From: Sphingomonas natans | Lineage (GTDB): Bacteria > Pseudomonadota > Alphaproteobacteria > Sphingomonadales > Sphingomonadaceae | NCBI RefSeq assembly: GCF_030546695.1 | Contig: NZ_JAUOTP010000001.1 | Span: forward strand, 62,001-126,000 | DNA: 64,000 bases | Direction of reading: 5' to 3' | In this document: piece after piece, positions 7,658 through 44,104 of the stretch | How the letters are laid out: each line of letters opens with the position of its first letter | How positions within the stretch are numbered: position 1 is the stretch's first letter | Notes under the pieces: generated by a model | Told to the model about the DNA's origin: nothing | The model's database searches: none | The model's input: only the letters and a program-made list of their open reading frames with translations | Translations under genes and position numbers: made by a program

Positions 7658-8772
7658 CGTAGCTGTACGTCCCACACCTTGGACCGGCGCGACGTGCCAT
7701 CCGGCCCGGTGACGTCGAGGATCGTGACGAAGCTACCGGGCTTGGCGAAGGCGTGGATCGGATGCTGTTCGGTCGAGCTGGTTCCATCGCCGAAATCCCA
7801 GTGCCAGCCGGTGGCCTTGCCGACGCTGTCGTCATGGAAGGCGACGAGGCGGCGATCCATGTCGACGACCTTCCAGCTCCAGCGCGCTTCGAGCTTGGCG
7901 TTCTCGATCGGCATCAGCTTGAACAGCGGGAGGTCCGAGGCAAGGCCGAACATCGGGCGCTGGGTGGAAAGCGACCAGAAGCCGTTCTTCGCGTCGGTCT
8001 TCACGTCGTCATAGTCGATGACGATCCAGCCGAGCGCGATCAGTGCATCCTCGCGCAGTTTCGACTCCACCGATCGCTCCGGACCTTCGGGATCGGCATG
8101 GTCGAACGGCGTGATGTAGAATTCGAGGCGGTAGGTGCCGCTTTGGCCCGGCGTGAATTTGTAGCTCTGCGCCGCATTGGCGAAGGGGAAATTCTTGATC
8201 CACGTCGGCGAGCCCCACGCCATCGCCCAATCCTTGTCCTTGTGCGGGGTCATGATGTGGTAATTCTGCGCCTGGACGCCGTGGCTATACCAGTGCGTGA
8301 GCGAGCCGGGCACGCGCGGATCGGTCTTCGACGCGCGCTGGCCGACCCATTCGGGCTTCCAGATGTCCTGGTGCTGGACGTCGATCAGCGGCCCGCCGGT
8401 GAGATCGGCATCGACGACGACCTCGAACGTGTCGTTGTGGAGGCCGGGCAGCGAGAAATCCCAATAATCGTCCTTGGCTTCGTAGAGGAAATAGAGGCGG
8501 TTGAGGCCTTTCACCCAGCCGACCTTGACGCGGATGTTGAGCGTCTTGTCCGGATTGTGGTGGCCGCCGTCCTGATCGGTCATCTGGTCCTGGCCGACGA
8601 CATAGCTTTCGGGGACCATGTCCCAGTCGGAGAACTCGCCGTCGATGCGCGGGATCCTGTCCTGCGGGAACTGAAAGACCTTGTAGGTGGTCTGCGGCTT
8701 GTCGAACGCCGCAGCGGGCGCCGTCACCACCGCGCCGGCAAGGGCGGCTGCCGCTACGAATTTGCTGAGCAT
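7654..8772 (-). CDS. Exported CBM9-like plus PKD-domain protein
   Basis: A 372-residue protein with a signal peptide (MLSKFVAAAALAGAVVTAPAAAF). Residues about 25-290 resemble the CBM9/DOMON-like sugar- or cofactor-binding fold (RIDGEFSDWDMVPESYVVG, LYFLYEAKDDYWDF, DTFEVVVDADLTGG). The C-terminal 80 residues are a PKD domain (GWHWDFGDGTSSTEQHPIHAF). No catalytic motif is visible. It lies between the PQQ dehydrogenase and the PL22 lyase in one unit, so a substrate-binding or presenting role in the periplasm or on the surface is likely. DOMON-type domains can also carry haem or sugar in electron-transfer proteins, which would fit next to a quinoprotein, but no haem ligands can be assigned. Confidence 0.75.
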   Translation of the reverse strand: MLSKFVAAAALAGAVVTAPAAAFDKPQTTYKVFQFPQDRIPRIDGEFSDWDMVPESYVVGQDQMTDQDGGHHNPDKTLNIRVKVGWVKGLNRLYFLYEAKDDYWDFSLPGLHNDTFEVVVDADLTGGPLIDVQHQDIWKPEWVGQRASKTDPRVPGSLTHWYSHGVQAQNYHIMTPHKDKDWAMAWGSPTWIKNFPFANAAQSYKFTPGQSGTYRLEFYITPFDHADPEGPERSVESKLREDALIALGWIVIDYDDVKTDAKNGFWSLSTQRPMFGLASDLPLFKLMPIENAKLEARWSWKVVDMDRRLVAFHDDSVGKATGWHWDFGDGTSSTEQHPIHAFAKPGSFVTILDVTGPDGTSRRSKVWDVQLR

Positions 8773-8787: not shown

Positions 8788-11136
8788 CTATTTCTTCGCA
8801 TCGAGCCGGAAGGCGACGATGGCATCACCCTGCGGATCCTTGAGCGAGCCGCCGCCGGCCGGGATCACGACATATTGGTGCCCGTCGCGGCCGCGATAAC
8901 TGAGCGGGGTCGCGTGTCCGCCCGCGGGCAGCCTGGTCTGCCAGACGAGCTTGCCGGTGTGGACATCGAATGCGCGGAACATCTCGTCCTGCGTCGCGGC
9001 GACGAAGACGAGGCCGCCGCCGGTGGCGAGCGTGCCGCCGATATTCGGCGCGCCTAGTACGATCGGCAATCCGAGGCGAAGCCCGAACGGGCCGCTCGCG
9101 CGCGCATCGCCGAGCGGGCGCGTCCAGACCGTCCGCCTCGTCTTCAGGTCGATCGCGCTGATCTCGCCGAAGGGTGGCTGCTGGCAGGGCACGCCCAGCG
9201 CCGAGAGAAACGGCCCCCAGTGGACGGCATAAGGCGTCCCGGCCATCGCGCCGCCGGGCGCCGAATGCCCGCGCGGATCGACCTTGGGGACCAGCCCCTC
9301 GCGATCGGCCTGTTCGCGCGAGATGAACTGGTCGCGATCCGCTAGATGGTTCGAGTTGACGATCAGTAGCCCGCGGCCCGCATCGATCGAGACGCTGCCC
9401 CAATCGATGCCGCCCAATTCGCCCGGATAGCGGATCGTCGGCGTCATCCCCATCGGCGTGTACATGCCGCCATAGACGGAGCGACGGAACGCGATCCGGC
9501 ACGAGAGCTGATCGAAGGGCGTAAGGCCCCACATCGTCCCCTCGGTCAGATCGCCGCGGAACGGGCTCGGCATGCCGACCGAATAAGGCTGGGTTGGTGA
9601 TGGACGCTCGCCCGTGGCCGAGGCGGGCGGTGCGCGGCGTTCCTCGACCTGGGTGAGCGGCTTGCCGGTCTGCCGGTCGAGCACGAACAATTGCTCGGTC
9701 TTCGTGGCGAGGATGATCGCCGGGACGGTGCGATCGCCGACCGGGAAATCGACGAGAGCGGGCTGCGCGGCGAGGTCATAATCCCACAGATCGTGATGCA
9801 CGGCCTGGAAGGTCCAGCGGACCGCGCCCGTCGTGACATCGATCGCGACGAGCGATGTCGAGAAGCGATCGGTGCTGGCAGGGCGTTTGCCGCCGAAGAA
9901 ATCGGGGCTGCCATTGCCCATCGGGACGAAAACGAGATTCAGGCGATCGTCGCCGCTGAAGACCGTCCAGGCATTGGGCGTGGAGTGCGTGTAGATCGTC
10001 CCGGGGGCGGGCGGCTGGGTCGCATCGGGCTTGGCGGCGTCGAACGCCCATTTCAGCCGCCCGGTGACCGCATCATAGCCGCGGATCACGCCCGGCGGCA
10101 CCTCGGTCGACTGGTTGTCGACGACATAAGCGCCGATGACGGCGGTGCCGTTGACGATCGTCGGGGGGGAGGTCGGGTGGGTCCAGCCTTGCGGAATCTT
10201 GCCGAGGCCGGTGAGCAGATCCGCGCGGCCGCCGTCGCCGAAGCTTCGGCAGAAGGCGCCCGTTTTCGCATCGAGCGCGATCAGGTGATTGTCGATCGTG
10301 CCGGCGAGGATCCGGGTGGAGCATTCGGCGGTGCCGACGGGTGCGCGGAAGAAGGTCACGCCGCGGCAGGCGGGGTGGCCGCCGGATGAATCGCGGTTGA
10401 GCGTATCGCGTCGCCAGACCTGCCTGCCCGTCACCGGATCGAGCGCGAAGATCCTGTTGAAGGCGGTGCAGCCATACACCAGCCCATCGGCCATGATCGG
10501 ATTGAGCTGGAGACCGCCGCGGCGCTTGCCGTCGGGCGAGCGCAGGCCGCTATGATAGACCCATGCCTCGCCGAGCCGACCGACGCTCGCGGGGTTGATC
10601 TCGGCGAGGGGAGTATAACGATTGGCGGCGCGGTTGCCGTAGCTCGGCCAGTCGAGGTCGCCCGAGGCGGTGGCGTTGGGACGGGGCAGGACGCCGCTGC
10701 CGTCGATGTGCGCGCCGCCGATGAGCGGCGCGAGCAGGACCACCAGCGAGATCGCCGCGATCGTGCCAAGCACCAGGCGCGGCGCGCCGCTCCTCCGGAC
10801 GTTCCGGAAGGCGAGGAGCAGCAGGATCGCGAGACCGATCAGGAAGGCGAGGCGGGGCATCAGCGCCCAGAAGTTGAACCCGCCTTCATAAAGCGCCCAG
10901 CCAAGGCTTGCGGCGAGCAAGGCCGCCATCAGCCATAGTGCCGCTACGCGCCGGCGAACCATCAGCACCGCGCAGGCGAGTAGCGCGGCGCCGGCGAGGA
11001 GATAATAAGCCGAGCCGCCCAAAGTCAGCAGCCAAAGCCCGGGTACGGCCAGTGCGGCGCCGCTGAGCGCAAAGAGTAGTACGCCGATCCAGATCAGCCA
11101 GGGTCGACCCCTCGGTGCGCCTTCCTGCCGGATCAT
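8788..11136 (-). CDS. Membrane-bound PQQ-dependent aldose dehydrogenase (mGDH family)
   Basis: A 782-residue protein, close to the usual length of about 796 of the glucose/quinate/shikimate quinoprotein family. The first 150 residues hold about five membrane helices. The rest is an eight-bladed propeller with typical segments: DWPSYGNRAANRYTPLAEIN, RPRIFALDPVTG-like repeats, GTIDNHLIALDAKTG, FQAVHHDLWDYDLAAQPALVD, MGMTPTIRYPGELGGIDWGSVSID and GGLVFVAATQDEMFRAFD. These enzymes oxidise aldoses on the periplasmic side to lactones and pass electrons to ubiquinone. It is the first gene of a five-gene minus-strand unit and faces a Tat-exported lactonase-like gene across a promoter region holding a palindromic operator. 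That pairing suggests lactone hydrolysis in the same compartment. PQQ biosynthesis genes are not in the window. Confidence 0.9.
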   Translation of the reverse strand: MIRQEGAPRGRPWLIWIGVLLFALSGAALAVPGLWLLTLGGSAYYLLAGAALLACAVLMVRRRVAALWLMAALLAASLGWALYEGGFNFWALMPRLAFLIGLAILLLLAFRNVRRSGAPRLVLGTIAAISLVVLLAPLIGGAHIDGSGVLPRPNATASGDLDWPSYGNRAANRYTPLAEINPASVGRLGEAWVYHSGLRSPDGKRRGGLQLNPIMADGLVYGCTAFNRIFALDPVTGRQVWRRDTLNRDSSGGHPACRGVTFFRAPVGTAECSTRILAGTIDNHLIALDAKTGAFCRSFGDGGRADLLTGLGKIPQGWTHPTSPPTIVNGTAVIGAYVVDNQSTEVPPGVIRGYDAVTGRLKWAFDAAKPDATQPPAPGTIYTHSTPNAWTVFSGDDRLNLVFVPMGNGSPDFFGGKRPASTDRFSTSLVAIDVTTGAVRWTFQAVHHDLWDYDLAAQPALVDFPVGDRTVPAIILATKTEQLFVLDRQTGKPLTQVEERRAPPASATGERPSPTQPYSVGMPSPFRGDLTEGTMWGLTPFDQLSCRIAFRRSVYGGMYTPMGMTPTIRYPGELGGIDWGSVSIDAGRGLLIVNSNHLADRDQFISREQADREGLVPKVDPRGHSAPGGAMAGTPYAVHWGPFLSALGVPCQQPPFGEISAIDLKTRRTVWTRPLGDARASGPFGLRLGLPIVLGAPNIGGTLATGGGLVFVAATQDEMFRAFDVHTGKLVWQTRLPAGGHATPLSYRGRDGHQYVVIPAGGGSLKDPQGDAIVAFRLDAKK

Positions 11137-11219
11137 CCCGCTTTTCTCCCATCGCGCTTATATTTGGAGCGGTGCTAGACTGCGCCGGCCCGGCCTGCAT
11201 CCTTGGATCGATCCCCGGT

Positions 11220-11234
11220 TCTCACTGGGTGAGA
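11220..11234. promoter_or_regulatory. Palindromic operator, regulon 1 site a (TCTCAC-TGG-GTGAGA)
   Basis: A perfect 6-bp inverted repeat with a 3-bp spacer lies between the divergent PQQ dehydrogenase (starts 11136) and the Tat-exported amidohydrolase (starts 11306). The same geometry recurs at 12302, 15425 and 20775, always in a promoter region. The shape fits an IclR-family box; IclR genes at 15546 or 4139 are the candidate binders. Confidence 0.8.
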
Positions 11235-11305
11235 GGTCGATCGCGATGGCGGTTGGCGTCGCCGGCTCGGGGCTGGCAGCGTTGCGCGCAACGGAGAGAA
11301 TGATG

Positions 11306-12286
11306 ATGGGGATCGGAGAGGGGATCGGGCGGCGCGAGCTGCTGATCGGCGGCGCGGCGACATTGGCGGCGGCGACGGCGGGCAAGGCCGCCGGGCGCGC
11401 GATACCGATCATCGACACGCATATCCACCTGTTCGATCCCAATCGGCCGCAGGGCGCGCCCTATCGCGGCCCGCGCAATTCGCCGACTTACGAAAAGGGC
11501 GCGTTTCCGGCTGATTATGCGGCCCTCGTCCGGCGCCATGATGTCGTCGGCGCGATCGAGGTGGAGGCCAGCGCCTGGATCGAGGACAATCTGTGGGTGC
11601 TGGAGACGGCGGCGCGCGATCCGATCATGATCGGCACGATCGGCAACATCCCTCTCGAGACGGCCGGCTTCGACAAGATCGTCGCGCGCTTCGCCAAGGA
11701 TCCGCTGTTCCGGGGGCTGCGCTACGGCAATCTGTGGGGTTACGATCTCGTCACGCAGAGCCGGGAGCAGAGCTTCCTGAACGGGCTCAAGCTGCTGGCC
11801 GACATGGATCTCGTGCTGGACACCGCCAATCCGCGGCTCGATCTGCTGCAGGCGGTGGTGCGGATCTCGGATGCCGTGCCGGGGCTGCGCATCGTGCTCG
11901 ATCATCTGCCGCGTTTCGATCCCGAGCCGGCGGACCAGGCAGGCTATGATGCGGTCCTACGCGAGCTCGCGCAGCGTCCGACCGTGTTCGCCAAGCTTTC
12001 GGAGATCATTCATCCGTTGGCGGGGCGGACGGCGACGAACGTGGAGGCCTATCGCGATCGGCTACGGCTGCTGGCAGGCACGTTCGGCCCCGATCGAGTC
12101 ATGTTCGGGAGCGATTGGCCTAATATCCTCCAGGATACGCCGCTCGATCAGGTATTCGCCGTCGCGCGCGCTTTCTATGCGGATCGGCCGATCGCCGAGC
12201 AGGAGAAGTATTTCTGGCGCAACTCGCTGGCCGCCTACAAATGGCAGCCGCGCACGCCCGCCCAAAGGCGCCTGACCAGTGGATGA
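11306..12286 (+). CDS. Tat-exported amidohydrolase (sugar lactonase type)
   Basis: The start at ATG 11306 is chosen because GGAGAG at 11293-11298 sits seven bases upstream; ATGs at 11300 and 11303 are alternatives. The 326-residue product begins with a twin-arginine signal (GRRELLIGGAATLAAATAG). A metal-dependent hydrolase barrel follows: IIDTHIHLFDP near residue 40, RGLRYGNLW, LDHLPRF and VMFGSDWPN. This is the COG3618 family, whose members include L-rhamnono- and L-fucono-lactonases and the LRA2 enzyme at 47987. A lactone-hydrolysing role is inferred, acting in the periplasm on the product of the adjacent PQQ dehydrogenase. Export of this family by Tat is unusual, since relatives such as the 47987 protein have no signal. 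Confidence 0.85.
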   Translation: MGIGEGIGRRELLIGGAATLAAATAGKAAGRAIPIIDTHIHLFDPNRPQGAPYRGPRNSPTYEKGAFPADYAALVRRHDVVGAIEVEASAWIEDNLWVLETAARDPIMIGTIGNIPLETAGFDKIVARFAKDPLFRGLRYGNLWGYDLVTQSREQSFLNGLKLLADMDLVLDTANPRLDLLQAVVRISDAVPGLRIVLDHLPRFDPEPADQAGYDAVLRELAQRPTVFAKLSEIIHPLAGRTATNVEAYRDRLRLLAGTFGPDRVMFGSDWPNILQDTPLDQVFAVARAFYADRPIAEQEKYFWRNSLAAYKWQPRTPAQRRLTSG

Positions 12287-12301
12287 ATATCACGGGCTCG
12301 C

Positions 12302-12316
12302 TCTCACCTGCTGAGA
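12302..12316. promoter_or_regulatory. Palindromic operator, regulon 1 site b (TCTCAC-CTG-CTGAGA)
   Basis: The same 6-3-6 geometry as the site at 11220, with one arm mismatch; the flanks extend the pairing to CTCTCA/TGAGAG. It lies 129 bases in front of the TonB-dependent receptor gene and just after the amidohydrolase stop. Confidence 0.72.
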
Positions 12317-12444
12317 GTGAACAGATGCCGGTTGTTTGACAGACAAGCGCCGAAAGACCCAAGATTTCGATGCCCGCCGGATCAAGTTCGGCAAGAGCAT
12401 AAAAGACCGATCAGCCAAAAAGGCGCGGTCACAGAGGAGGATGT

Positions 12445-15237
12445 ATGAAGGGATTCCTTAAGGGGAGCCGGCTGCCTGCCGCGCTTCTGTTGGGCGCCGG
12501 GCTCAACGCAATGCTTTTCGCCGATCCGGTTTTCGCGCAGGCCGCCCCGACGCCGCCGCCCGCAAGCCCCGCAGATGCCAGCGCTTCCACCGTGCCCGCC
12601 GGTACGCTGCCATCCTCGACGGGTCCGTCGGAGGCCGACGTTTCCGAGATCGTGGTTACCGGCTCCAGCATCCGCGGCGTGCCGCCGACGGGTTCGCAGC
12701 TGATCCAGCTGAGCGCGGATTCGGTGGTCAATACCGGCGCCACGACGACGCAAGAGTTGCTGTCGAACGTGCCCCAGCTCGGCGCGTTCAACACCACGCC
12801 CCGGCCGGACCAGCGATCCAACGGCATCATCTCGACCGCGCCGAACATCCGCGGCATCGGCCAGGCGCAGACGCTCGTGCTGATCAACGGTCATCGGCTC
12901 GTCGGCGTCGGCCAGCTTCAGAACATTCCCGATCCCTCGATCGTGCCGCCGTCCGCTATCCAGCGGGTCGAGATCGTCGCCGACGGCGCGTCTTCGGTGT
13001 ACGGATCGGACGGCATCGCCGGCGTCGTCAACGTCATCACGCGCCGCGATTATCAGGGCATCGAAGGCACGTTTCGCACCGGCTTCGGCAAGGACGGCTA
13101 CCGGACGCTCAACGCCAATGCCGTGACCGGCGCCAAATGGGGCACGGGCGGCGTGATGGTCTCGGGCGAATATACCAAGAACAGCCGCATCGAAGCCCGC
13201 GACAAGAATTACCTGACGCAGAATTTCCTCGCTCAGGGCGGCCGCGACAATCGCGTGATCGGCAATGCCTGCACGCCTGCCACCTATCGCTACAACACCG
13301 CGGCGGGCGCCCCCACCGGCGACTTCATCCAGCCGGCCACGGGCGCGATCAATCCGCGCTGCGACAATTTCTCCGACGGCGACATCTATCCCAAGCAGGA
13401 GCGGCTGAGCTTCTTCGGATCGGGCCATCAGGACGTGACCAATGGCATCGAGCTGTTCGGCGACGCCTTCTATTCGCGCACCACCTCCGACGCGAAGCGC
13501 CCCGAGGGCTCGCTCTACGCGAACGGCGTCGTCACCCGGCAGAGCCCGTTCTTCCCGGCCGGGGTGCCGGCGTCGGTTCCCTCGGTGACGGTCTATTACA
13601 ACGTGAACCGCGTGACCGGCATTCCCGAGCGCGACAGCCAGGAAGTGGAGGTCTATGGCGGAACGGTCGGCACGAACATCAAGCTGCCGCATGACTTCAA
13701 TTGGACGACCTACGTCACCGGATCGCGCAGCCAGACCGATCTGCACGAGGGCAGCTTCAGTTCGATCGCCAACGCCGCCTTTATCAACGCGCCGACCGCC
13801 GCGACGGCGATCGATCCGTTCGGCAATGGCACGAGCTCGCAGACGGCCATCACGCTCGCCGACTGGGAGCAGCGCTACTTCTCCAAGCAGTATATCTGGG
13901 AGATCAACTCCAAGATCGACGGCAAGCTGTTCACCTTGCCCGGCGGCGACGTCAAGGTCGCGCTCGGCGGCGTCTATCGCCAGGAATATTATGACGGCCT
14001 GTTCCTGAATGGCCGGATCGGCTTCCGCGAAGGCGTCGGCGCGCAGAGCGGGCTCCGCAAGGTCTATTCGGGCTTCGGGGAGTTGTTCGTGCCGATCTTC
14101 GGCGCGGACAATGCGACCGGCATCTTCCAGCGGCTCGATCTCTCGCTGTCGGGACGCTACGACAAATATAACGATTTCGGCAGCACGACGAACCCGAAGA
14201 TCGGCGTCAATTGGTCGCCCGTCGGCGGGCTGACCTTCCGCGGCAGCTACAGCACGTCGTTCCATGCTCCGGCATTGCCCGATTTGTTCGGACCCGACAC
14301 GCGCGCCGGCTATCTGGCGAACGGACTGTTGCCACCGGGCATGCCGGTCGGCTCCGTGCCGGGCGGCATCTTCATCGCGGGCGGCAATCCCAATCTCGAT
14401 GCCGAGAAATCCAAGAGCTATTCGCTCGGCGCCGATTTCCAGCCAGAGGCCATCCGCGGCCTGCGGGCAAGCCTCACTTACTACAATATCAAGTTCAAGG
14501 GCCGCGTGGCCTTCCCGAACTCGGCCTTCTTCTACGTCGATCCGGCCTTCAATCCCTATTTCGTCAGCAACATCGTCTGCGCGAGCGGGACCTATCCGAC
14601 CGGCACGAACTGCGTATCGCGGCCGATCGACAAGAATACCGTGTTCAACCTGATCAAGGATATTCCCCGTCAGGGCTTCCCCGCGACAGTCAACAGCGCC
14701 GCCGATCTGCCCGATATCTACAGTGTCACGATCCTGCGTCGCGCCAACCTCGCGCAGATCAACACGGACGGTCTCGATTTCGATATCGGCTACGAATTCG
14801 ATACCGGCATCGGCAGGATCGGGACGCAGATCCAGGGCAATTATGTCCTGAATTACAATCAGAGCGGTGCGCCGGGCTCCGCCTTCGTCGATCAGTTCAA
14901 TTTCGGGCAGCAGCGCCTGAAGGTTCGCGGCCAGACCTCGCTCAAGTCCGGTCCCGTCGTCGCGGTCGGCACCGTCAACTTCACGGGGAAGTATAAGAAC
15001 CAGTTCAATCTCGCGAGTGGAGCGCTCGCGATCGACAAGATCGACTCCTACACCACGGTAGATCTGCACTTCGGCTATCAATTCGACGGCGAGGGGCTGA
15101 TGAAGGGCAGCGAGATCGATCTCGATGTCAGCAACCTGTTCGACCAGGAGCCGCCGTTCATGCGATCGGCGTTCGGCTACGGGATCGGCGACGTGGTCGG
15201 CCGTGTCATCAGCGTGGCGGTCCGCAAGAAGTTCTAA
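12445..15237 (+). CDS. TonB-dependent outer-membrane receptor (oligosaccharide uptake candidate)
   Basis: A 930-residue receptor with a signal peptide (cleavage after ADPVFAQA), a Pro/Ala-rich linker, a TonB-box-like DVSEIVVTGSSIRG, the plug domain (LLSNVPQLGAF, RGIGQAQTLVLINGHRL, YGSDGIAGVVNVITRR) and a long 22-strand barrel. It ends in the outer-membrane signature aromatic residue (VRKKF). A good Shine-Dalgarno, GAGGAGG, precedes the start at 12445. The upstream operator and the downstream strong terminator mark it as a single-gene unit inside regulon 1. The setting suggests uptake of pectin oligosaccharides, but receptors of this type cannot be assigned a substrate from sequence alone. Confidence 0.92.
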   Translation: MKGFLKGSRLPAALLLGAGLNAMLFADPVFAQAAPTPPPASPADASASTVPAGTLPSSTGPSEADVSEIVVTGSSIRGVPPTGSQLIQLSADSVVNTGATTTQELLSNVPQLGAFNTTPRPDQRSNGIISTAPNIRGIGQAQTLVLINGHRLVGVGQLQNIPDPSIVPPSAIQRVEIVADGASSVYGSDGIAGVVNVITRRDYQGIEGTFRTGFGKDGYRTLNANAVTGAKWGTGGVMVSGEYTKNSRIEARDKNYLTQNFLAQGGRDNRVIGNACTPATYRYNTAAGAPTGDFIQPATGAINPRCDNFSDGDIYPKQERLSFFGSGHQDVTNGIELFGDAFYSRTTSDAKRPEGSLYANGVVTRQSPFFPAGVPASVPSVTVYYNVNRVTGIPERDSQEVEVYGGTVGTNIKLPHDFNWTTYVTGSRSQTDLHEGSFSSIANAAFINAPTAATAIDPFGNGTSSQTAITLADWEQRYFSKQYIWEINSKIDGKLFTLPGGDVKVALGGVYRQEYYDGLFLNGRIGFREGVGAQSGLRKVYSGFGELFVPIFGADNATGIFQRLDLSLSGRYDKYNDFGSTTNPKIGVNWSPVGGLTFRGSYSTSFHAPALPDLFGPDTRAGYLANGLLPPGMPVGSVPGGIFIAGGNPNLDAEKSKSYSLGADFQPEAIRGLRASLTYYNIKFKGRVAFPNSAFFYVDPAFNPYFVSNIVCASGTYPTGTNCVSRPIDKNTVFNLIKDIPRQGFPATVNSAADLPDIYSVTILRRANLAQINTDGLDFDIGYEFDTGIGRIGTQIQGNYVLNYNQSGAPGSAFVDQFNFGQQRLKVRGQTSLKSGPVVAVGTVNFTGKYKNQFNLASGALAIDKIDSYTTVDLHFGYQFDGEGLMKGSEIDLDVSNLFDQEPPFMRSAFGYGIGDVVGRVISVAVRKKF

Positions 15238-15275
15238 CACGTTTTCCCGATCGCCACAGGATGGCGATCCCTGAG

Positions 15276-15312
15276 GGTCAGGCTTCCTATCGCGGAAGCC
15301 TGACCTTTTTTT
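15276..15312 (+). terminator. Rho-independent terminator after the TonB receptor
   Basis: A perfect 12-bp stem GGTCAGGCTTCC / GGAAGCCTGACC with a 6-base loop is followed by seven T's. It begins 38 bases after the receptor stop codon. Confidence 0.95.
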
Positions 15313-15358
15313 GTGTCTGTGTCAGGCGATGCTGGACAGGTCCTGAACCAAAGGGCAG

Positions 15359-15373
15359 TATTGTCATACAATA
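15359..15373. promoter_or_regulatory. 15-bp perfect palindrome TATTGT-CAT-ACAATA
   Basis: A perfect 6-bp inverted repeat with a 3-bp spacer in the 308-base gap between the TonB receptor and the IclR gene. It differs from both IclR-type boxes in the window. TTGT...ACAA half sites resemble those of FCD-GntR repressors, so a GntR-type protein, perhaps one encoded here (23378 or 38065), is possible. The rest of this gap holds the terminator at 15276 and the operator at 15425; I see no gene in it. Confidence 0.6.
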
Positions 15374-15424
15374 GAAATCGGCGGCTGACATGTTCAGCTA
15401 CCGGATTCGCTGCCGCTCGCCGCC

Positions 15425-15439
15425 TCTCAGTTCGTGAGA
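15425..15439. promoter_or_regulatory. Palindromic operator, regulon 1 site c (TCTCAG-TTC-GTGAGA)
   Basis: The same 6-3-6 palindrome with one mismatch, 107 bases in front of the IclR gene at 15546. It suggests that the regulator controls its own expression and that of the transporter translated from the same message. Confidence 0.75.
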
Positions 15440-15545
15440 GAATTGGCCTGCCGGCGTCGGCGTCGTGCATGGGCTTGCCGATGCAATCCGCCGTAAAAAG
15501 GCGAAGTGAAGGGCCGAAAAGAGCCCGCAAACGGAGGAGAGAGAG

Positions 15546-16379
15546 ATGGGAACTCCGAAGAACCAGTCGGTCATGAAGGCCTTTGTCCTGTTGCGGGCGT
15601 TTCGCCGGCCGGACGAATGGTTGACCAGCTCCGAGCTTTCGCGTCGCGCGAAGATGCCCGAGGCGTCCGGCTATCGGATGATGCAGACATTGGAGGGGAT
15701 TGGCGCGGTCGTTCGCGATGCGCGCGGGCGTTACCGTCCGGGCATGCTTCTGCTCGAATTGTCCAACAGCATCGACGCGCAGGATCTGTGGCGGACCGCG
15801 GCCCAGTCGATCCTCGAGAGCTGGTCGCAGCGTCTCGACGTCACCGTCCAGATCGGCGTCTACGAAGAGGGCATGGTCACCTATGTCGCGCGCGCCGGAC
15901 GGCCGCGCGGCAGTTTCCTGCTCGCGCAGGGCATGCAGTTCGAGGCCTATTGTACCGCGCTCGGCAAGATCCTGCTCGCCGAACTGCCCGAGGACGATCT
16001 CAAGGCCTTTTTCGAAGAGGGCGAGCTCGTCGCCTTCACCCCCCAGACGATCACCCGCGAGGATCGCCTGCGCGCGGAGTTACAGGAAATCCGGTTGCTC
16101 GGCTTCGCGCTCGACGATCGCGAGACGCTGGAGGATGTGCGCTGCATCGCCGCGCCGGTGCGCAACCCGGCGGGCCGGGTGGTGGCGGCGATCTCCTTCT
16201 GCGACGAGGCGGATCGTCTGAGCGAAGCTAGGCGCCAGGAGATGACGGACAATCTGCTCGAGGCGGCTGCGGAGGTCGGGCGTCGCATCTATCCGTGGTG
16301 CGATACGCCGCCGGCGAGGCTGTCGGGCATATCGGGCAAAGAGCCCACCGCGATGGCTCATGCAGGCGTGGCCTTGTGA
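15546..16379 (+). CDS. IclR-family transcriptional regulator (candidate regulon 1 regulator)
   Basis: A 277-residue protein preceded by a GGAGG ribosome site. The winged-helix domain covers about residues 8-70 (MKAFVLLRAFRRPDEWLTSSELSRRAKMP); the effector domain follows (GMQFEAYCTALGKILLAELPEDDL, DVRCIAAPVRNPAGRVVAAISF). The stop overlaps the GTG start of an MFS transporter. Four TCTCAC-N3-GTGAGA palindromes lie within about 10 kb around it, one in front of itself, making it the best candidate for their binder. The IclR at 4139 is the competing candidate. Effector is unknown; a sugar acid or 2-keto-3-deoxy acid is plausible from the neighbours. Confidence 0.88.
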   Translation: MGTPKNQSVMKAFVLLRAFRRPDEWLTSSELSRRAKMPEASGYRMMQTLEGIGAVVRDARGRYRPGMLLLELSNSIDAQDLWRTAAQSILESWSQRLDVTVQIGVYEEGMVTYVARAGRPRGSFLLAQGMQFEAYCTALGKILLAELPEDDLKAFFEEGELVAFTPQTITREDRLRAELQEIRLLGFALDDRETLEDVRCIAAPVRNPAGRVVAAISFCDEADRLSEARRQEMTDNLLEAAAEVGRRIYPWCDTPPARLSGISGKEPTAMAHAGVAL

Positions 16380-17680
16380 TCTCAGATCTGCGGGCCGGCA
16401 TTGCCGAGAAAAGCGGGCGGCTGCGCTGGACGGTCGTCACCTGGGCGTTCGTGATCAGCGCGGTTTCCTACCTTGATCGCAACAATATCTCGATCGCGGG
16501 GTCGTCCATCAAGGAGGCCTTCGCGCTGAGCGATCGACAACTCGGCCTCGTCTTTTCCGCCTTCGCGCTCGGCTATGCGCTGAGCCAGCCCTTTGCCGGG
16601 CGGATCGCGGACCGGTTCGGCGCCTATCGCTGCGTCGCCGCGGCGATCGTGTGGTGGGGGGTCTTCACCGCGCTGACTGCGATGCTGCCGCCGGGCCTGC
16701 CGTTCGCGCTGACGCTGCTGATCGTCGTGCGGCTGCTGCTGGGCGTAGGCGAGGCGGTGATCTTCCCGGCGACCAACCGGCTCGTCAGCAGTTGGGTGCC
16801 GAAGTCCGAACGTGGCCTCGCCAATGGCTTCATCTTCGCCGGCGTGGGCATCGGCGGCGGTATCGCTCCGCCGCTCATCACCGCGATCGTCGTCAATTTC
16901 GGCTGGCAATGGGCCTTCTATGCGAGTGCGATCATCGGCGTCGTCGTCGGCATCGGCTGGCTGTTCGCGGTGCGCGATACGCCTCACGAGCATCCGGCGA
17001 TCTCGCCGCAGGAGCTGGCCTATATCGAGGCGCATGTGGCGCCACGGTCGAAGGGCGAGGGCGGCGCGGACTGGCGCACGGTCGTCAAGGACAAGCAGGT
17101 GCTGCTGCTAACGACGAGCTATTTCTGCTTCGGCTATGTCGCCTACATCTTCTTCTCCTGGTTCTTTATCTATCTGTCGAAGGTCCGCGGGCTGGATCTG
17201 AAATCGAGCGCGCTGCTCGCTACACTCCCTTTCCTGGCGATGACGATCTTCTCGACGCTCGGCGGATCGGTTTCCGACAGGATGGCTGCAAGGCACGGGG
17301 ACCGGATCGGGCGTTGCCGGATCGCGGCGGGCGCGATGATCCTGGCGAGCCTGTTCGTGATGGGCGCAACCGCCGTGTCGAGCGCGCAGCTCGCGAGCAT
17401 CGTCCTCGCCGGCGGGGCGGGCTCGCTCTACTTCGCGCAGAGTGCGTATTGGACGCTCAGTGCCAATATCGGCGGCAAATCGAGCGGCGTGCTGTCCGGC
17501 GTGATGAACATGGGCGCGCAACTGGGAGGGGTGGTTACCGCCTCGACGATGCCGATCGTGGCCGAGTCCTTCGGCTGGACGGCGTCGTTCCTCGTCGCGG
17601 GCGGGATCGCGATGGTGGGCGGGCTGCTGTGGCTGCTGATCGATCCGCAGCATGAACTGAGCGAAGCCGAGGCAGGCTGA
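16376..17680 (+). CDS. MFS transporter, anion:cation symporter type
   Basis: A 434-residue, 12-helix protein that starts at GTG 16376, four bases inside the IclR stop (GTGA), so translation is coupled. SYLDRNNISIAGSSIKEAF and RLLLGVGEAVIFPATNRLVSSWVPKSERGLANG are typical of the hexuronate/aldonate branch. Because its message appears to share the regulon 1 operator with the exported dehydrogenase, lactonase, dehydratase and aldolase genes, it may bring into the cytoplasm the acid they produce. Substrate is inferred only from context. The intergenic region after it (17681-17768) contains an imperfect inverted repeat CTCCTGC/GCAGGAA without a T-tract. Confidence 0.87.
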   Translation: MISDLRAGIAEKSGRLRWTVVTWAFVISAVSYLDRNNISIAGSSIKEAFALSDRQLGLVFSAFALGYALSQPFAGRIADRFGAYRCVAAAIVWWGVFTALTAMLPPGLPFALTLLIVVRLLLGVGEAVIFPATNRLVSSWVPKSERGLANGFIFAGVGIGGGIAPPLITAIVVNFGWQWAFYASAIIGVVVGIGWLFAVRDTPHEHPAISPQELAYIEAHVAPRSKGEGGADWRTVVKDKQVLLLTTSYFCFGYVAYIFFSWFFIYLSKVRGLDLKSSALLATLPFLAMTIFSTLGGSVSDRMAARHGDRIGRCRIAAGAMILASLFVMGATAVSSAQLASIVLAGGAGSLYFAQSAYWTLSANIGGKSSGVLSGVMNMGAQLGGVVTASTMPIVAESFGWTASFLVAGGIAMVGGLLWLLIDPQHELSEAEAG

Positions 17681-17768
17681 GCGAACCGGGCTCCTGCGCA
17701 AGGCAGGAACCCGCATTTCGTATTTGCGCGGGATCGTTCCTGCAACGCCGCCGTCTATCCGGCCGACT

Positions 17769-18296
17769 TCAAGGCTTGGCGGGTGCGTCCCCGCGCGGAA
17801 TATGCATCGAGATCAGGACGAGTTCGCCGTCCGGCGCAGGAAATTGGTGCGCCGTCTCGGCGGGCACGAAGAAGACGTCGCCGGGGGCGACCTTGATCGT
17901 CTGGCCGCCGGTGATGCTGGTGCCGGAGACGTTGCCGTTCTTGCCCGGCTTCGGATCGGCGATCTGGCCGCCCATCAGCAGCGTGCCTGTGCCGCGCACG
18001 ACGTAGAAAAGCTCGATGTCGGCATGCGTCGCCGCGGTCCAGCCGCCGCGGCGGATCTCGATGAAACTCGTATAGGTGCCGAACTGGTGAATCGGCTGGA
18101 CGATCACGGGCTGGCCCGGCTTCATCTCGCCTTCGGCATGCTTGATGATCGCCGCGATCTCGGCCGAGGTCGCGTAGCTCGCGAGCCCGGTCGGCTGGAT
18201 GGGCAGCGACAGCGTGTAAGGCTGCTGCGCCACAGCGGAGCCTGCCAGTGCCACCGCGCCAATAGCGGCGAGGACGCGCAGACGGTGACCGGTCAT
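17769..18296 (-). CDS. Exported cupin-domain protein
   Basis: A 175-residue protein with a signal peptide (MTGHRLRVLAAIGAVALAGSAVAQ), start at ATG 18296, eight bases after the upstream DapA-family stop. A single cupin barrel is visible: motif 1 around THADIELFYVVRGTGTLLMGG and motif 2 GDVFFVPAETAHQFPAPDG, which give two or three metal-binding His/Glu residues. Small cupins such as KdgF act on unsaturated uronates in pectin catabolism by opening the ring, and other cupins are sugar isomerases or epimerases. Either would suit a gene placed last in an exported dehydratase-aldolase unit, but similarity to KdgF is only at the level of fold. Function is therefore unassigned. Confidence 0.8.
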   Translation of the reverse strand: MTGHRLRVLAAIGAVALAGSAVAQQPYTLSLPIQPTGLASYATSAEIAAIIKHAEGEMKPGQPVIVQPIHQFGTYTSFIEIRRGGWTAATHADIELFYVVRGTGTLLMGGQIADPKPGKNGNVSGTSITGGQTIKVAPGDVFFVPAETAHQFPAPDGELVLISMHIPRGDAPAKP

Positions 18297-18304
18297 ATGC
18301 TTCC

Positions 18305-19300
18305 TCACGCGCGCAGATAGGGGCGGAGATAGGTGTCCATCACGCGCTTGATCTCCTCCACCGAACGCGCGGGCAGATAGCGCCCCGCCGACGAGCCCAT
18401 CGCCATCGGCCCCATGCGCAGCGTCGTGCCGGGCGTGAAGATGCCACGCGCGATCATCGCCTCGATCGAGCTTTGCGAGAACATCGTGTTGGCCGCCTGG
18501 ATCGCGCCGAAGATCTGGAAAGCCTTGGCCTTGTCGCCCGCCTGCCACGCTTCCCACGCCGCTTGGTAGACGTCCGTGAGCGTCATGAAGGGGCAGGCGC
18601 CGATGAAGCCGCGATCCATTTCGGTGACCAGGAAATTGGCGCCGCGCCCGGAGAAGTCCGCGACCTCGCCCTTGGTGCGCTTCAGCAATTCCTGGACGCG
18701 CTCCAGCGGCTCGCCGGATTCGTCCTTCACGTAGCGCATCGTCGGGATCGTCTCGTACATCCTGACGAGCAGATCGACGCTCATCTTGCCGACCGCCTGC
18801 ACGAACAAAGGCAGGTGGCTCATCTTGCCGACCTGCTGATAATAATCGAGCAGCGCCGCCTCGTCAGTGATCTTCTCGGGCGGAATGCAGATCACGGCCG
18901 CGGCGCCGATCTTGGCGGCATGCGTCGCGTAACGCTTTACCGCCGCCGTGTCGGGGCTCTGGATGCCGATCACCACCGCCGTCTCGCCGCCCTTGGCTGC
19001 GCCGACGAGCGCTTCCGCGCCCTGCAGCCGTTCGGCCTCGGTCAATACGGTCCAGCCGCTGGCGATCTGCGGCCAGGCTATGCCCGGCACGCGCGCGCGG
19101 CGCAGGAAGGTCACCTGGCCCGCGAGCTGGGCGAAATCGATCTTGTCGGCGGCGTCGACCGGCGTCGCGCCGATCGGGAAGAGGCCGCGGAAGCGCTTGT
19201 CCGCAGGCGCCGCCTGCAGCAGCGCGCCGGGCGCGGCGAAGGCCGCGGCGCCAAGCGCCAGCCCCTGCAGCAGCAGGCGCCGGGTGGGCATGTGGATCAC
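18305..19300 (-). CDS. Tat-exported dihydrodipicolinate-synthase (DapA) family aldolase
   Basis: A 331-residue protein of the class I aldolase DapA/NanA/KDG-aldolase family with an N-terminal twin-arginine signal (TRRLLLQGLALGAAAFAAPGALLQA). The catalytic Schiff-base Lys is in MRYVKDESG. Barrel strands RGLFPIGATPVDAADKIDF and GIAWPQIASGW are in family positions, although the canonical GTTGE motif is altered. The GTG start at 19300 overlaps the stop of the dehydratase (GTGA); ATG 19291 is the alternative. In non-phosphorylating pathways such aldolases split 2-keto-3-deoxy sugar acids to pyruvate and an aldehyde. Family members are normally cytoplasmic, so a Tat signal is remarkable and agrees with the Tat signal on the gene just upstream. 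Confidence 0.85.
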   Translation of the reverse strand: MIHMPTRRLLLQGLALGAAAFAAPGALLQAAPADKRFRGLFPIGATPVDAADKIDFAQLAGQVTFLRRARVPGIAWPQIASGWTVLTEAERLQGAEALVGAAKGGETAVVIGIQSPDTAAVKRYATHAAKIGAAAVICIPPEKITDEAALLDYYQQVGKMSHLPLFVQAVGKMSVDLLVRMYETIPTMRYVKDESGEPLERVQELLKRTKGEVADFSGRGANFLVTEMDRGFIGACPFMTLTDVYQAAWEAWQAGDKAKAFQIFGAIQAANTMFSQSSIEAMIARGIFTPGTTLRMGPMAMGSSAGRYLPARSVEEIKRVMDTYLRPYLRA

Positions 19301-20697
19301 CGCAGAATCTGCTTGGTCGCGCGATCGAAGGCGGCGCGGTCGATCGGCACGCCAAGACCCGGCGCGGTCGGCGCGTGGATATAGCCGTCCTTATCGGGGC
19401 GATACTTGATCGGCATGTAAGGGTGATCGACCAGTTCGGCCGGGTAGGGCACTTCGAACCACGAGGCGTTGGGTAGCGCCAGCTCGAGGTGAAAGTGCAC
19501 CGCCAGATCCATCGGGTTGCCCCAATTGTGCGGCGTGCATTCGAGGCCGAAGGCATCCGCAAGCAGGCCAACGCGCATCGATCCGCTGATGCCACCCGTA
19601 TTGTCCGCGATCAGGCGGACGACGTCGAGCGCGCCCTTGGCGATATATTCGGCGAAGTCCGCGATCGAATAGATGAACTCGCCGACGTGGATCGGTAGGT
19701 TCGCATAGCGGCAAAGCTCGATCAGGCCTTCCTGATCGTCGGTGCGCAGCGGATCCTCGAACCAGGCGAAGTCGAGATCATCAAGCGCGCGGGCGACCTT
19801 CATCGCCTCGTAGCGATTGTACATCATCACCGGATCGTGGGCGAGGATATACTCGTCGCCGACCGCCGCGCGGATCTGCTTCGCTTCCTCGATATGGCCG
19901 AGATAGGCGGGCACGTCCGCGCCCTTGCGATGCGCGCCGGTGCCGGGGTGGATCTTATAGGCGCGGAAGCCCTGGCTCTTGGCCTTCAATGCCTCGGGCG
20001 CATAATCCTCGATCGAGGGGTGATGCGTCGAGCTGGCATAAGCGATCAGCTTGGTCTTCTGCGCGCCGACGCCGCCATGCAGGATCTGGTAGATCGGGCG
20101 GTTCACCGCCTTGCCCATGATGTCCCACAGGCAGATGTCGGCGGCCGCGCGGTACCAGTTCGGCCAGGCGCCGCCGCCGCGCAGGACGAGACCGCTGCCC
20201 TGGAGGGCGGGCGTGACGAACGCGGATTCATCGCCGACGCCGCCGCGCTTCCCGAAGGTCTGCGCGCCCGTGTAGCGGCCATTCTCCTTGGGATCGCCCA
20301 TCTGCCCGTTGAAGCCGTAGGTGCTCTTCAGCCCGGACGTGGAGGCCAATGCTGGCAGCAGATCCACCACGCTCTTGCCGACGAGCGTCGCCTTCGCCCA
20401 ATCGACCCAGCCTTGCCCCGGCGTGCGATTGCGGTTGCCGAGCGTATAGAGGCCTTCGATCCCGCTGTTGGTGATGATCGAGACGATCTCGCCATTCTCA
20501 CCGTTCAGGCTTTTATAGCCGGCGATGTCGGTGACGTAGCAGCGCACCTCCTTGACCGTGAGATCGGGCAGGTCGCCTGCCTTGACGCCCACGGTCTGCG
20601 CGGCGGCCGCTCCGGGATTGGCCAGTGCCGCCATTCCGGCCGTGGCGAGCGCCGCCGACGAGCCCAGAATTTCGCGACGGGATGCCATGGCTTTCAT
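19297..20697 (-). CDS. Tat-exported enolase-superfamily sugar-acid dehydratase
   Basis: A 466-residue protein with a classic twin-arginine signal (SRREILGSSAALATAGMAAL) followed by the mandelate-racemase-type fold. Active-site elements are present: K-x-H in AYKIHPG, metal ligands in AHDPVMM, FEDPL and VGEFIYS, and a His in CTPHNWGNP. The enzyme therefore looks catalytically complete and should dehydrate a sugar acid to a 2-keto-3-deoxy acid. A start at ATG 20688 is also possible. It is the first gene after the 21-bp palindrome at 20775 and overlaps the DapA-family gene. Enolase-superfamily dehydratases are usually cytoplasmic, so export of this one with its aldolase partner is the key oddity of the region. 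Confidence 0.88.
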   Translation of the reverse strand: MKAMASRREILGSSAALATAGMAALANPGAAAAQTVGVKAGDLPDLTVKEVRCYVTDIAGYKSLNGENGEIVSIITNSGIEGLYTLGNRNRTPGQGWVDWAKATLVGKSVVDLLPALASTSGLKSTYGFNGQMGDPKENGRYTGAQTFGKRGGVGDESAFVTPALQGSGLVLRGGGAWPNWYRAAADICLWDIMGKAVNRPIYQILHGGVGAQKTKLIAYASSTHHPSIEDYAPEALKAKSQGFRAYKIHPGTGAHRKGADVPAYLGHIEEAKQIRAAVGDEYILAHDPVMMYNRYEAMKVARALDDLDFAWFEDPLRTDDQEGLIELCRYANLPIHVGEFIYSIADFAEYIAKGALDVVRLIADNTGGISGSMRVGLLADAFGLECTPHNWGNPMDLAVHFHLELALPNASWFEVPYPAELVDHPYMPIKYRPDKDGYIHAPTAPGLGVPIDRAAFDRATKQILR

Positions 20698-20774
20698 GCG
20701 ATCTCGGCCCTCTTCCAGTTATCTGTTTTTCCGTGATCAGACCTTGGCCGACGCTCAGGACCGGCGCAAAGTCG

Positions 20775-20795
20775 GTCTCTCACAGCGTGAGAGAC
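20775..20795. promoter_or_regulatory. Palindromic operator, regulon 1 site d (GTCTCTCAC-N3-GTGAGAGAC)
   Basis: The longest and most perfect of the four sites: nine paired bases on each side of AGC. It lies 78 bases in front of the dehydratase start (20697) and just after the aldose epimerase stop (20804), so the downstream genes probably have their own regulated promoter. Confidence 0.85.
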
Positions 20796-20803
20796 GGTCG
20801 CGC

Positions 20804-21949
20804 TCAGCGCCCCGCGGTCGACAGCTTGAAGATCAGGACGTGGCGATAGGGTTTGCCCGGATCGACGCGCGCCGAGACGAAGGCAGGCTTGTTGGGCGCG
20901 TCCGGGAATTTCTGCGGCTCCAGCGCGATGCCGTCGCCCATCCGGTAGAGATGGCCGCTTTTGCCGACATAGGTGCCGTCGAGGAAGTTGCCCGTGTAGA
21001 ACTGGACGCCCGGCTCGGTGGTCAGCACCTCCAGCACGCGGCCCGATTGCGGATCCTCCAGCCGCGCGGCGAGACCGGGTTCGGCGGTGAGGCCCTTGTC
21101 GAGCGCGAAATTGTGGTCGTAGCCCTGGCCGAAGCGCATCTGCTCGTCGCGCCCGTCGCGGATGCCATCGGCCACGACGCGCGGTTTGCGGAAGTCGAAG
21201 ACGGTGCCCGCGACCGGCCGCAGTTCGCCCGTCGGGATCAGCTTGGCGTCGACCGGCGTGTAGGCGGCGGCGGGGATCGTCAGGCGGTGCCCGGTCGCGC
21301 CGCCAGGCGAGCCTTCGCCGGCGAGATCGAAGATGGCGTGGCTGGTCATGTTGACGACGGTCGGCTTGTCGGTCGTGGCCGCATAAGCGATCGTCAGCGC
21401 ATTCTGCTCGTCGAGCGAATAGGTGACCGTCACGTCGAGCTTGCCGGGATAGCCGGCATCGCCATCGGGACTGGTCAGCGCGAGCACGAGCTTCGCGACC
21501 GGGCCGCTCGTGGCCGAGACGATGCGCCAAACCTTCTTGTCGAAGCCGTTGCCGCCGCCGTGCAGCGAGTTGGTCTTGTCGTTGAGCGGGAGCGAATAGC
21601 TCTTGCCGTCAAGTGTGAAGCGGCCGCCGGCAATGCGATTGGCGTAGCGGCCGACGGTGACTCCGAAGAAATTGGGCTTGCTCTCGTAGGTCGCCGCATC
21701 GTCATAGCCGAGCACGATGTCGGCGATCTTGCCGTCGCGGTCGGGCGACTTCAGCGCCTGCAGCGTCGCGCCATAAGAGAGGATGCGCGCGGAGACGCCC
21801 TTGCCGTTCGAGAGCGTGACGGCCTCGATCGCGGTGCCGTCCTTGAGCGTTCCGGCAGCCTCGCGATGCACTTCGGCGGCGGTGGCGGGGGCGGCCATCA
21901 GCAGCGCTGCGGCCAGGCATGTGGACGGACCACGGGCAATTCCTCGCAT
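20804..21949 (-). CDS. Exported aldose 1-epimerase (mutarotase)
   Basis: A 381-residue protein starting at ATG 21949 (GGAGAGG upstream), giving a signal peptide (MRGIARGPSTCLAAALLMAAPATAAEV). Galactose-mutarotase family motifs are present: RYANRIAGGRFTLDGKSY, NSLHGGGNGFDKKVW, NMTSHAIFDLAG with the catalytic His, GQGYDHNFALD and EPGVQFYTGN, which includes the catalytic Glu region. It interconverts the anomers of free aldoses. In the periplasm it would feed the beta-anomer to a PQQ dehydrogenase or to the diverging FucP-type sugar symporter at 22066. It lies upstream of the Tat-exported dehydratase on the same strand but is separated from it by the site d operator. Confidence 0.9.
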   Translation of the reverse strand: MRGIARGPSTCLAAALLMAAPATAAEVHREAAGTLKDGTAIEAVTLSNGKGVSARILSYGATLQALKSPDRDGKIADIVLGYDDAATYESKPNFFGVTVGRYANRIAGGRFTLDGKSYSLPLNDKTNSLHGGGNGFDKKVWRIVSATSGPVAKLVLALTSPDGDAGYPGKLDVTVTYSLDEQNALTIAYAATTDKPTVVNMTSHAIFDLAGEGSPGGATGHRLTIPAAAYTPVDAKLIPTGELRPVAGTVFDFRKPRVVADGIRDGRDEQMRFGQGYDHNFALDKGLTAEPGLAARLEDPQSGRVLEVLTTEPGVQFYTGNFLDGTYVGKSGHLYRMGDGIALEPQKFPDAPNKPAFVSARVDPGKPYRHVLIFKLSTAGR

Positions 21950-25692: not shown

Positions 25693-25724
25693 GCGCATAT
25701 CGAATAATCGGAAAGGGAGACCGG

Positions 25725-27652: not shown

Positions 27653-27663
27653 CGACAATAGCG

Positions 27664-27679
27664 CCGGCCGATCGGCCGG
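27664..27679. promoter_or_regulatory. Perfect 16-bp palindrome CCGGCCGATCGGCCGG
   Basis: It lies in the 53-base gap between the arabinose dehydrogenase and GH51 genes, 26 bases before the GH51 start and directly followed by its AGGAGG-type ribosome site. It could be a mRNA hairpin that changes expression within the operon or a protein site. No other copy was noticed. Confidence 0.4.
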
Positions 27680-27705
27680 ACGCAAAAGGAGGGGGAGAAC
27701 AGCCG

Positions 27706-29259: not shown

Positions 29260-29337
29260 AACGACGAGGGGGTCAGCGCGAAACGGCATTCGCTGCTGGC
29301 CCGCTTCGAGACGTCCGGGACGGAGGCCGTACCTCCT

Positions 29338-30195: not shown

Positions 30196-30212
30196 TTCCG
30201 TTCCTCCCGATC

Positions 30213-30235
30213 AGTCCGACAATTATCCGACAAGT
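30213..30235. promoter_or_regulatory. Tandem GTCCGACAA elements (AGTCCGACAATTATCCGACAAG)
   Basis: Two overlapping TCCGACAA direct repeats 12 bases apart lie between the divergent lactonase and dehydratase genes. The element AGTCCGACAA also occurs at 21996. TTGTCGGATAA, read on the other strand, is a near palindrome. This is a candidate operator for the GntR at 23378. Confidence 0.5.
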
Positions 30236-30345
30236 CCGCTCGGCTTGGCAAGCGTCGGCTGGCGCGGTTGCAAAACGCACTGACGGTTGGGCCCGCGCGA
30301 CCGGATTGCGCTCGGCGCCATAAAACTTATAAATACTCCTACATA

Positions 30346-44071: not shown

Positions 44072-44104
44072 GGTTGCAGTCCTTCTGTGTGGTGTTCGAT
44101 GTGC

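Follow-up and report, generated by a model that had tools for sequence, protein, structure and literature searches.

Tat-type export signals on putative sugar-acid enzymes of Sphingomonas natans and their relatives suggest an extracytoplasmic, non-phosphorylating sugar-oxidation module

This study concerns a group of apparently exported sugar-converting enzymes encoded by Sphingomonas natans on a 64,000-nucleotide stretch of contig NZ_JAUOTP010000001.1 (positions 62,001 to 126,000; hereafter the window, whose own numbering is used throughout), which belongs to a genome of 4.56 Mb in 13 contigs. An earlier reading made from the letters alone (the sequence-only reading) had proposed that the region 8,788-21,949 encodes a periplasmic Entner-Doudoroff-like route, and all genes named there were confirmed by gene calls and family searches. 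The minus strand carries, at 8788-11136, a membrane-bound pyrroloquinoline quinone (PQQ) dehydrogenase of the glucose/quinate/shikimate family (PF01011), which passes TIGR03074 with 855.2 bits (cut-off 832.65) and thereby bears out the claim of a PQQ aldose dehydrogenase at the membrane. On the plus strand, LACT (11300-12286) is an amidohydrolase (PF04909) resembling COG3618 proteins and fuconolactonase, hence a putative lactonase; its start is probably 11300 or 11306, and GGAGAG precedes 11300. Three further genes lie on the minus strand, namely a GalM-type aldose 1-epimerase, or mutarotase (20804-21949, likely start 21949; PF01263; NF008277 at 312.8, cut-off 240, and TIGR02636 at 326.7, below its cut-off of 397.65), the enolase-superfamily protein ENOL (19297-20697; PF13378, 167.4 bits), which is a candidate aldonate dehydratase, and the DapA-family protein DAPA (18305-19300; PF00701, 39.7 bits, cut-off 22.1), a candidate 2-keto-3-deoxyaldonate lyase. 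DAPA and ENOL overlap by four bases if DAPA starts with the GTG at 19300, an ATG at 19291 being also possible. Transcription on this strand runs from the mutarotase through ENOL and DAPA to a cupin gene, and the PQQ dehydrogenase and a PKD-domain protein also run leftwards.

Signals for twin-arginine translocation (Tat) were scored with a rule of our own (RR-x-hydrophobic, then an uncharged hydrophobic stretch), which misses some starts that are clear by eye (the lactonases of relatives L041 and L008, the enolases of L049 and L056) and may wrongly pass the enolase of L031. LACT (GRRELLIGG), ENOL (SRREILGSS) and DAPA (TRRLLLQGL) all pass, each with an N-terminal twin-arginine motif before a hydrophobic stretch, as the sequence-only reading had noticed, while the cytoplasmic versions encoded elsewhere in the window (2079, 45117 and 47987) fail. 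A whole-genome profile search returned 11 MR_MLE_C matches (10 above cut-off) and three DHDPS matches, and among these 11 enolase-superfamily and three DapA-family places only ENOL and DAPA have a Tat-type signal at an N-terminus in the right frame; in one DHDPS open reading frame (ORF; L075) the RR lies only far upstream of the evident start. The Pfam TAT_signal model PF10518, which is 21 positions long, matched twice in the genome, neither time in the window. The mutarotase and the cupin begin with Sec-like N-termini when read by eye, which agrees with their proposed export. Export of LACT, ENOL and DAPA is very likely. Another cluster in the same genome (L078, G000:C8:410000-429999) encodes a DapA-family protein, enolase-superfamily proteins, an aldehyde dehydrogenase and a major facilitator superfamily (MFS) carrier; neither the DapA-family protein nor the enolases there have a signal.

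A scan of species genomes yielded 55 DAPA loci (L009-L063) from Acidobacteriota, Verrucomicrobiota and Proteobacteria, of which 53 are contigs of metagenome-assembled genomes (MAGs) by title and two are weak Aureimonas matches. Because the search for these loci used DNA patterns taken from DAPA, the conservation of DAPA is partly built in and that of its neighbours is not; binning errors are possible, many loci are closely related Bryobacterales, the neighbours common to L010 and L013, which overlap on a single contig, are counted twice, and many contigs end near the DAPA gene, which limits neighbour counts. The 51 loci of the Tat-rule and neighbour counts are L008 and L009-L058; L006 and L007 are left out because they duplicate L052 and L048, L059 because its contig ends within DAPA, and L060-L063 because they are weak relatives. 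Alignments A2 and A3 omit the over-long ORFs of L021 and L031, respectively. With one row per locus, 49 of 51 DapA proteins pass the Tat rule, the two misses being cut by a contig end (L057) or apparently broken (L046), so that the signal is not a chance pattern. The bare RR pattern occurs in 54 of 56 DapA, 26 of 30 enolase and 15 of 16 lactonase ORFs, counts that include the duplicates L006 and L007 and, among the 26 enolase matches, at least four fragments or non-terminal RR. An enolase-superfamily gene accompanies DapA at 30 of the 51 loci (23 pass the Tat rule), a lactonase relative at 14 (10 pass), a PQQ or propeller/cytochrome-type protein at 26 and a bacterial microcompartment (BMC) cluster gene at eight; if the count is limited to the 40 loci whose DNA spans at least 9 kb, the corresponding numbers are 25 (20), 14 (10), 23 and 7. 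Of 16 DAPA-bearing genomes, among them this one and a congener, 15 contain the LACT family at some place, a count of family presence and not of export. One contig (L099) brings together, in about 12 kb, genes for a lactonase, a Tat-DapA, a cupin-like protein, a PQQ-type protein and a Tat enolase. The search for the same Tat-bearing gene set in other genomes, which had been suggested as a check, thus shows a group of exported oxidoreductase, lactonase, enolase and DapA recurring in other phyla, but the full set is not universal and members are missing from many loci.

Which enolase takes part varies. Across 14 DAPA-bearing genomes, ENOL scores above 700 bits in five, 447-498 bits in three and 124-128 bits in two. 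Four loci whose genomes have no strong ENOL (L047, L049, L052 and L056; L052 is the same MAG as L048/G536) carry other enolase-superfamily proteins with Tat-like starts less than 9 kb from DapA, about 23-51% identical to one another and to ENOL; those of L047 and L052 pass the Tat rule. The L047 enolase resembles L-rhamnonate dehydratase and the L049, L056 and L052 enolases resemble gluconate/galactonate dehydratases, all below cut-offs. Besides its Tat-like enolase, L052 carries a glucose-type PQQ dehydrogenase that lacks the membrane part (552.8 bits, below cut-off) and a mutarotase with a signal-like start that adjoins the Tat-DapA gene. That the grouping recurs with different enolase subfamilies ties exported dehydration to the DapA step more strongly than any other evidence, and it speaks, with the tight arrangement of the ENOL and DAPA genes in the window, against the idea that separate exported enzymes were gathered by chance or by a shared regulator and share no substrate chain. 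Members are indeed missing at some loci and an orthologous ENOL is missing from several alphaproteobacteria; other alphaproteobacterial loci, among them L048, L050, L053 and L054, show no enolase in the locus DNA examined. We nevertheless consider such an unconnected collection improbable.

Some versions of the locus have additions of their own. At acidobacterial and Opitutae loci (L041 4152-5956, L029 2947-4646, L024 6528-8176, L015 4738-6506) a BMC shell protein, assigned by PF00936 for L041 and by clustering for the other three, stands beside the exported set together with a second DapA-family protein in which no Tat signal was noticed; PMC8217296 gives a class II aldolase for the catalogued Acidobacteria BMC type. 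At L048 (10962-12932), and also at L047, L049, L056, L011 and L013, Tat-DapA adjoins a conserved pair, of which one member is a beta-propeller protein bearing a signal and the other a small protein that combines a CxxCH motif with a helix-hairpin-helix; the pair is perhaps the oxidoreductase of those versions. The Opitutae contig L015 has three Tat-bearing DapA paralogues within 16 kb (1020-2156, 9842-11050 and 15428-16552).

The key residues of the two central enzymes are strongly conserved. ENOL belongs to the MR/MLE branch, having the MR_MLE C-terminal domain (PF13378) and three acidic metal ligands; K248-x-H250 and the ligands D288, E314 and E340 occur in 22 of 22 aligned rows, and His390 in 21 with one gap. 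Its structure model has a predicted local distance difference test score (pLDDT) of 78.7, with an insert at 120-178 poorly modelled. In DAPA, modelled at pLDDT 90.4 with a low-confidence signal region, Lys192, Asp193, Glu194, Trp76, Ser81 and Trp83 are invariant in all 51 aligned rows, as is a W-P-x-x-x-S-x-W motif whose third place is Gln in 50. The nearest solved relative by both profile (81.3 bits) and fold (7c0d) is L-2-keto-3-deoxyarabonate dehydratase (7c0c, 7c0d, 3fkk), which has a Lys at the aligned position but differs from DAPA in sequence (about 20% identity), in its Tyr-bearing loop and in the W-P-x-x-x-S-x-W motif, which is invariant in DAPA. From these residues a Schiff base of Lys192 with a 2-keto acid is likely, and the following step would most likely be splitting to pyruvate and a short aldehyde, a second dehydration being less likely. 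LACT is best placed as a PF04909 amidohydrolase resembling lactonases, with 81.9 bits against the L-fucono-1,5-lactonase model NF052480 (equivalog cut-off 400).

We propose, with a probability of roughly 0.5, that the locus is an extracytoplasmic non-phosphorylating sugar-oxidation module. The exported mutarotase would anomerize a monosaccharide, which the membrane PQQ dehydrogenase would oxidize at C1 to the lactone on the periplasmic face; Tat-exported, COG3618-like LACT would open the lactone, Tat-exported ENOL would remove water to give a 2-keto-3-deoxyaldonate, Tat-exported DAPA would convert this keto acid through a Schiff base at Lys192, and the resulting acids would be taken up by the MFS carrier encoded at 16376. 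At the level of sequence, this proposal is supported by the genes themselves, their Tat-type signals and the conservation of these, the invariant key residues and the co-location of the exported members in three phyla, so that the comparative evidence for such a module can be called good. The odds that all of these enzymes form one extracytoplasmic chain are about even. A stronger version, in which an all-periplasmic route leads from aldose through lactone, aldonate and 2-keto-3-deoxyaldonate to pyruvate and an aldehyde, delivers its electrons directly to the respiratory chain with no import or phosphorylation of the sugar, and came together repeatedly, with enolases of different subfamilies, and moved between phyla, seems to us somewhat short of an even bet.

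A number of observations weigh against the proposal. A cell that cleaves a sugar beyond its membrane may lose products, and the advantage is not evident. The lactonase, dehydratase and aldolase candidates all fall below every NCBIfam equivalog cut-off, ENOL reaching at best 113.8 (cut-off 550) against the sugar-acid dehydratase equivalogs. At some loci the set is incomplete, since in the contig DNA at hand 21 of the 51 lack an enolase-superfamily gene and 37 a lactonase relative, and the 40 loci with at least 9 kb lack an enolase in 15 cases, a lactonase in 26 and a PQQ/propeller/cytochrome-type protein in 17. An orthologous ENOL is missing at E 1e-30 from four of 14 DapA genomes and weak (124-128 bits) in two more, and the L049 and L056 enolases fail the Tat rule, their signals being read by eye. 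DAPA is also rare, occurring, with this genome counted, in two of seven genomes of the genus, two of 385 in a class sample and two of 149 in a family sample, where the other case is a 30% relative without an evident signal. Finally, a search for pqqC, the only pqq gene searched for, did not detect it in the genome; the same search found pqqC above cut-off in two of 99 family members. The PQQ of the dehydrogenase may therefore have to come from outside.

Two catalytic residues also count on this side. The claim that the enolase active site is intact holds for the metal ligands and K-x-H but not for the dyad Asp of the mandelate racemase type, which is Ile363 in ENOL and in all 22 rows. This weakens the case for ENOL as a plain mandelate-racemase-type dehydratase. 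The best profile match of ENOL, an Agrobacterium enolase-superfamily group (1rvk/4hcd/4hch, 162 bits), likewise has K-x-H and no dyad Asp, and 4hch is titled D-glucarate dehydratase; identity is 22%, the profile alignment begins only at position 158 of 453, and by fold 4jhm and 2ox4 rank above this group. DAPA, for its part, has the Schiff-base Lys that had been pointed out but lacks the Tyr usually found in the loop: at the PYY of DHDPS the loop is shortened, residues 138-150 are Tyr-free in 49 of 51 rows, and the other two have a Tyr further on. As a plain aldolase, DAPA is weakened by the missing Tyr. For the periplasmic Entner-Doudoroff-like route as a whole, export signals, cytoplasmic counterparts and recurrent grouping stand in favour, whereas the dehydratase likeness and missing Tyr of DAPA weaken the identity of the aldolase.

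The likeness of DAPA to L-2-keto-3-deoxyarabonate dehydratase, without the loop Tyr, would also suit a different division of labour, in which only the oxidation, the opening of the lactone and the dehydration are extracytoplasmic; the 2-keto-3-deoxyaldonate would be taken up, a cytoplasmic dehydrogenase and hydrolase would split it, as in the diketo-hydrolase route known for L-rhamnose, and exported DapA would do another job on the same keto acid, such as a second dehydration or an aldol/retro-aldol equilibration. The window itself encodes a complete-looking cytoplasmic L-rhamnose diketo-hydrolase pathway at 43307-48895 (Lra1 466.7, cut-off 400; L-rhamnonate dehydratase 762.9, cut-off 393; diketo hydrolase 539.7, cut-off 500), followed by RhaT at 48892-49968. 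Among the 56 loci L008-L063, relatives of its dehydrogenase (47149) lie near Tat-DapA at seven, FAH-type hydrolases at three (one of which, L022, scores only 214 bits) and flavin mononucleotide (FMN) L-lactate dehydrogenase (LldD) at two; the L012 hydrolase just passes NF053535 (500.8, cut-off 500), those of L013 (442.3) and L099 (480.5) fall below, LldD of L013 exceeds its own cut-off, and L099 has both hydrolase and dehydrogenase genes after the Tat enolase on the opposite strand. Dehydrogenase or hydrolase relatives thus occur at eight of 56 loci, whereas 48 show none of these genes in the locus DNA examined; moreover, the cytoplasmic genes of the window lie about 25 kb away with a dehydratase and a lactonase of their own and do not need the exported set. 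We regard this import variant as rather unlikely. L-lactate oxidation genes stand near the L-rhamnose route at 39385-41555 (LutB/LldF model 437.1, just below the cut-off of 444.8).

The substrate of the proposed extracytoplasmic module can be narrowed only in part. The rhamnose-type dehydrogenase, hydrolase and LldD genes near Tat-DapA in some relatives make a 6-deoxyhexose possible, while galactose or arabinose would suit the GalM-type mutarotase and the glucose-type PQQ dehydrogenase just as well, and a family scan of neighbour proteins (85 of the 174 listed) singled out no single substrate. A further stretch of the window (24223-32160) holds an aldehyde dehydrogenase, an AraD1/GguC protein, a Gfo/Idh oxidoreductase, an arabinofuranosidase and an IlvD-type dehydratase, and looks by its gene content like a cytoplasmic L-arabinose route.

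Several neighbouring genes may bear on uptake and regulation. Downstream of LACT on the plus strand lie a TonB-dependent receptor (12445-15237; identified by reading its translation), which would serve outer-membrane uptake, an IclR-family regulator (15546-16379; PF01614, PF09339) and the MFS carrier (16376-17680; PF07690), whose best NCBIfam match is the D-galactonate transporter TIGR00893 at 254.5 bits, below its cut-off of 395. Similar TonB receptors occur near DapA genes in relatives, and the regulator is 48.6% identical to an IclR protein beside the DapA gene of L048. A terminator-like hairpin follows the receptor at 15273-15308, found by a consensus scan with fewer sites than chance expects; promoter and terminator sites were no commoner than in shuffled sequences (2 against 2.1 and 4 against 7.4). 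The cupin (17769-18296, minus strand, start 18296; PF07883, 39.3 bits) is weakly similar to a cupin-like protein after the Tat-DapA gene of L099 (32.5% over 80 residues). To the left, on the minus strand, the exported-looking PKD-domain protein (7654-8772; PF18911), the N-terminal part of which we take to resemble a carbohydrate-binding module, is a conserved neighbour with relatives in L008, L018, L024, L029, L041 and L099.

This conserved protein and the nearby TonB receptors, together with cell-wall genes in the window (glycoside hydrolase family (GH) 88, an arabinofuranosidase, two GH35 and an oligogalacturonate-lyase match just below its cut-off) and in L041 and L029 (GH28, GH106 and UxaC), would also be expected if the targets of the exported enzymes were not free sugars but plant cell-wall oligosaccharides, whose reducing ends they would trim by oxidation ahead of uptake. 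The active sites of familiar DapA-type and enolase-type enzymes enclose small acids, which counts against this view, and in the scan of 85 of the 174 listed neighbour proteins few glycosidase families appear among the first 25 of 104 families (GH28 in two, GH2 in two); we find it very improbable.

The distribution of DAPA looks like movement between phyla, judging from the tree and provided that the MAG labels are correct. In a tree of 51 DAPA proteins, the window protein falls into a well-supported set of seven rows (100/99) together with that of a congener and those of contigs that are labelled Acidobacteriaceae, Gammaproteobacteria, Phenylobacterium and an unplaced proteobacterium. The DAPA of L028, a contig labelled Rhodanobacteraceae, sits inside an otherwise acidobacterial clade, a case of recent transfer or of a binning error. 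Among 247 genomes of the phylum of L041 (labelled Bryobacterales), with the best 6 or 8 candidates per genome scored and the L041 genome counted, DAPA was found at E 1e-50 in seven and ENOL at E 1e-90 in one. A plasmid search with DAPA gave distant relatives only (103 records, all below 60% identity, and the 20 listed all below 29%), and one scan of viral contigs with DAPA as single query gave none.

Compared with known systems, the locus shares superfamilies and the presumed order of steps (sugar 1-dehydrogenase, lactonase, dehydratase, DapA-type aldolase or dehydratase) with the non-phosphorylating Entner-Doudoroff-type aldonate pathways. The known routes of that kind are cytoplasmic and use NAD(P) dehydrogenases, whereas the locus has a membrane quinoprotein as its dehydrogenase and Tat-type signals on three enzymes. 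The cytoplasmic L-rhamnose diketo-hydrolase pathway has the lactonase and dehydratase superfamilies in common with the locus but neither signal peptides nor a DapA-type step. Like periplasmic oxidation by membrane PQQ glucose dehydrogenase, the proposed module would begin on the periplasmic side of the membrane and lead to the import of acids. To our knowledge, such PQQ systems end at oxidation or lactone opening, whereas here the dehydratase and the lyase would be exported too; carbon-carbon cleavage in sugar catabolism is regarded as cytoplasmic. That some sugars are turned into acids in the periplasm before transport is stated in PMC12076931. An exported dehydratase and lyase of this kind do not appear in the accessible parts of PMC12076931, PMC8217296, PMC5507952 and PMC13274419. 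The sequence-only reading had not known the route to be described, and we likewise found no description of it, or of such an exported pair, in the open-access literature; as most subscription journals lay outside that search, novelty is provisional.

Taken together, the similar exported sets in several phyla suggest that some bacteria dismantle sugars outside the cytoplasm. If this is true, some plant-polymer degraders would break sugars down to three-carbon units in the periplasm, import small acids only and pass the electrons straight to respiration, and a function would be at hand for enolase-superfamily and DapA-family proteins with Tat signals, which by family name would be taken for cytoplasmic enzymes.

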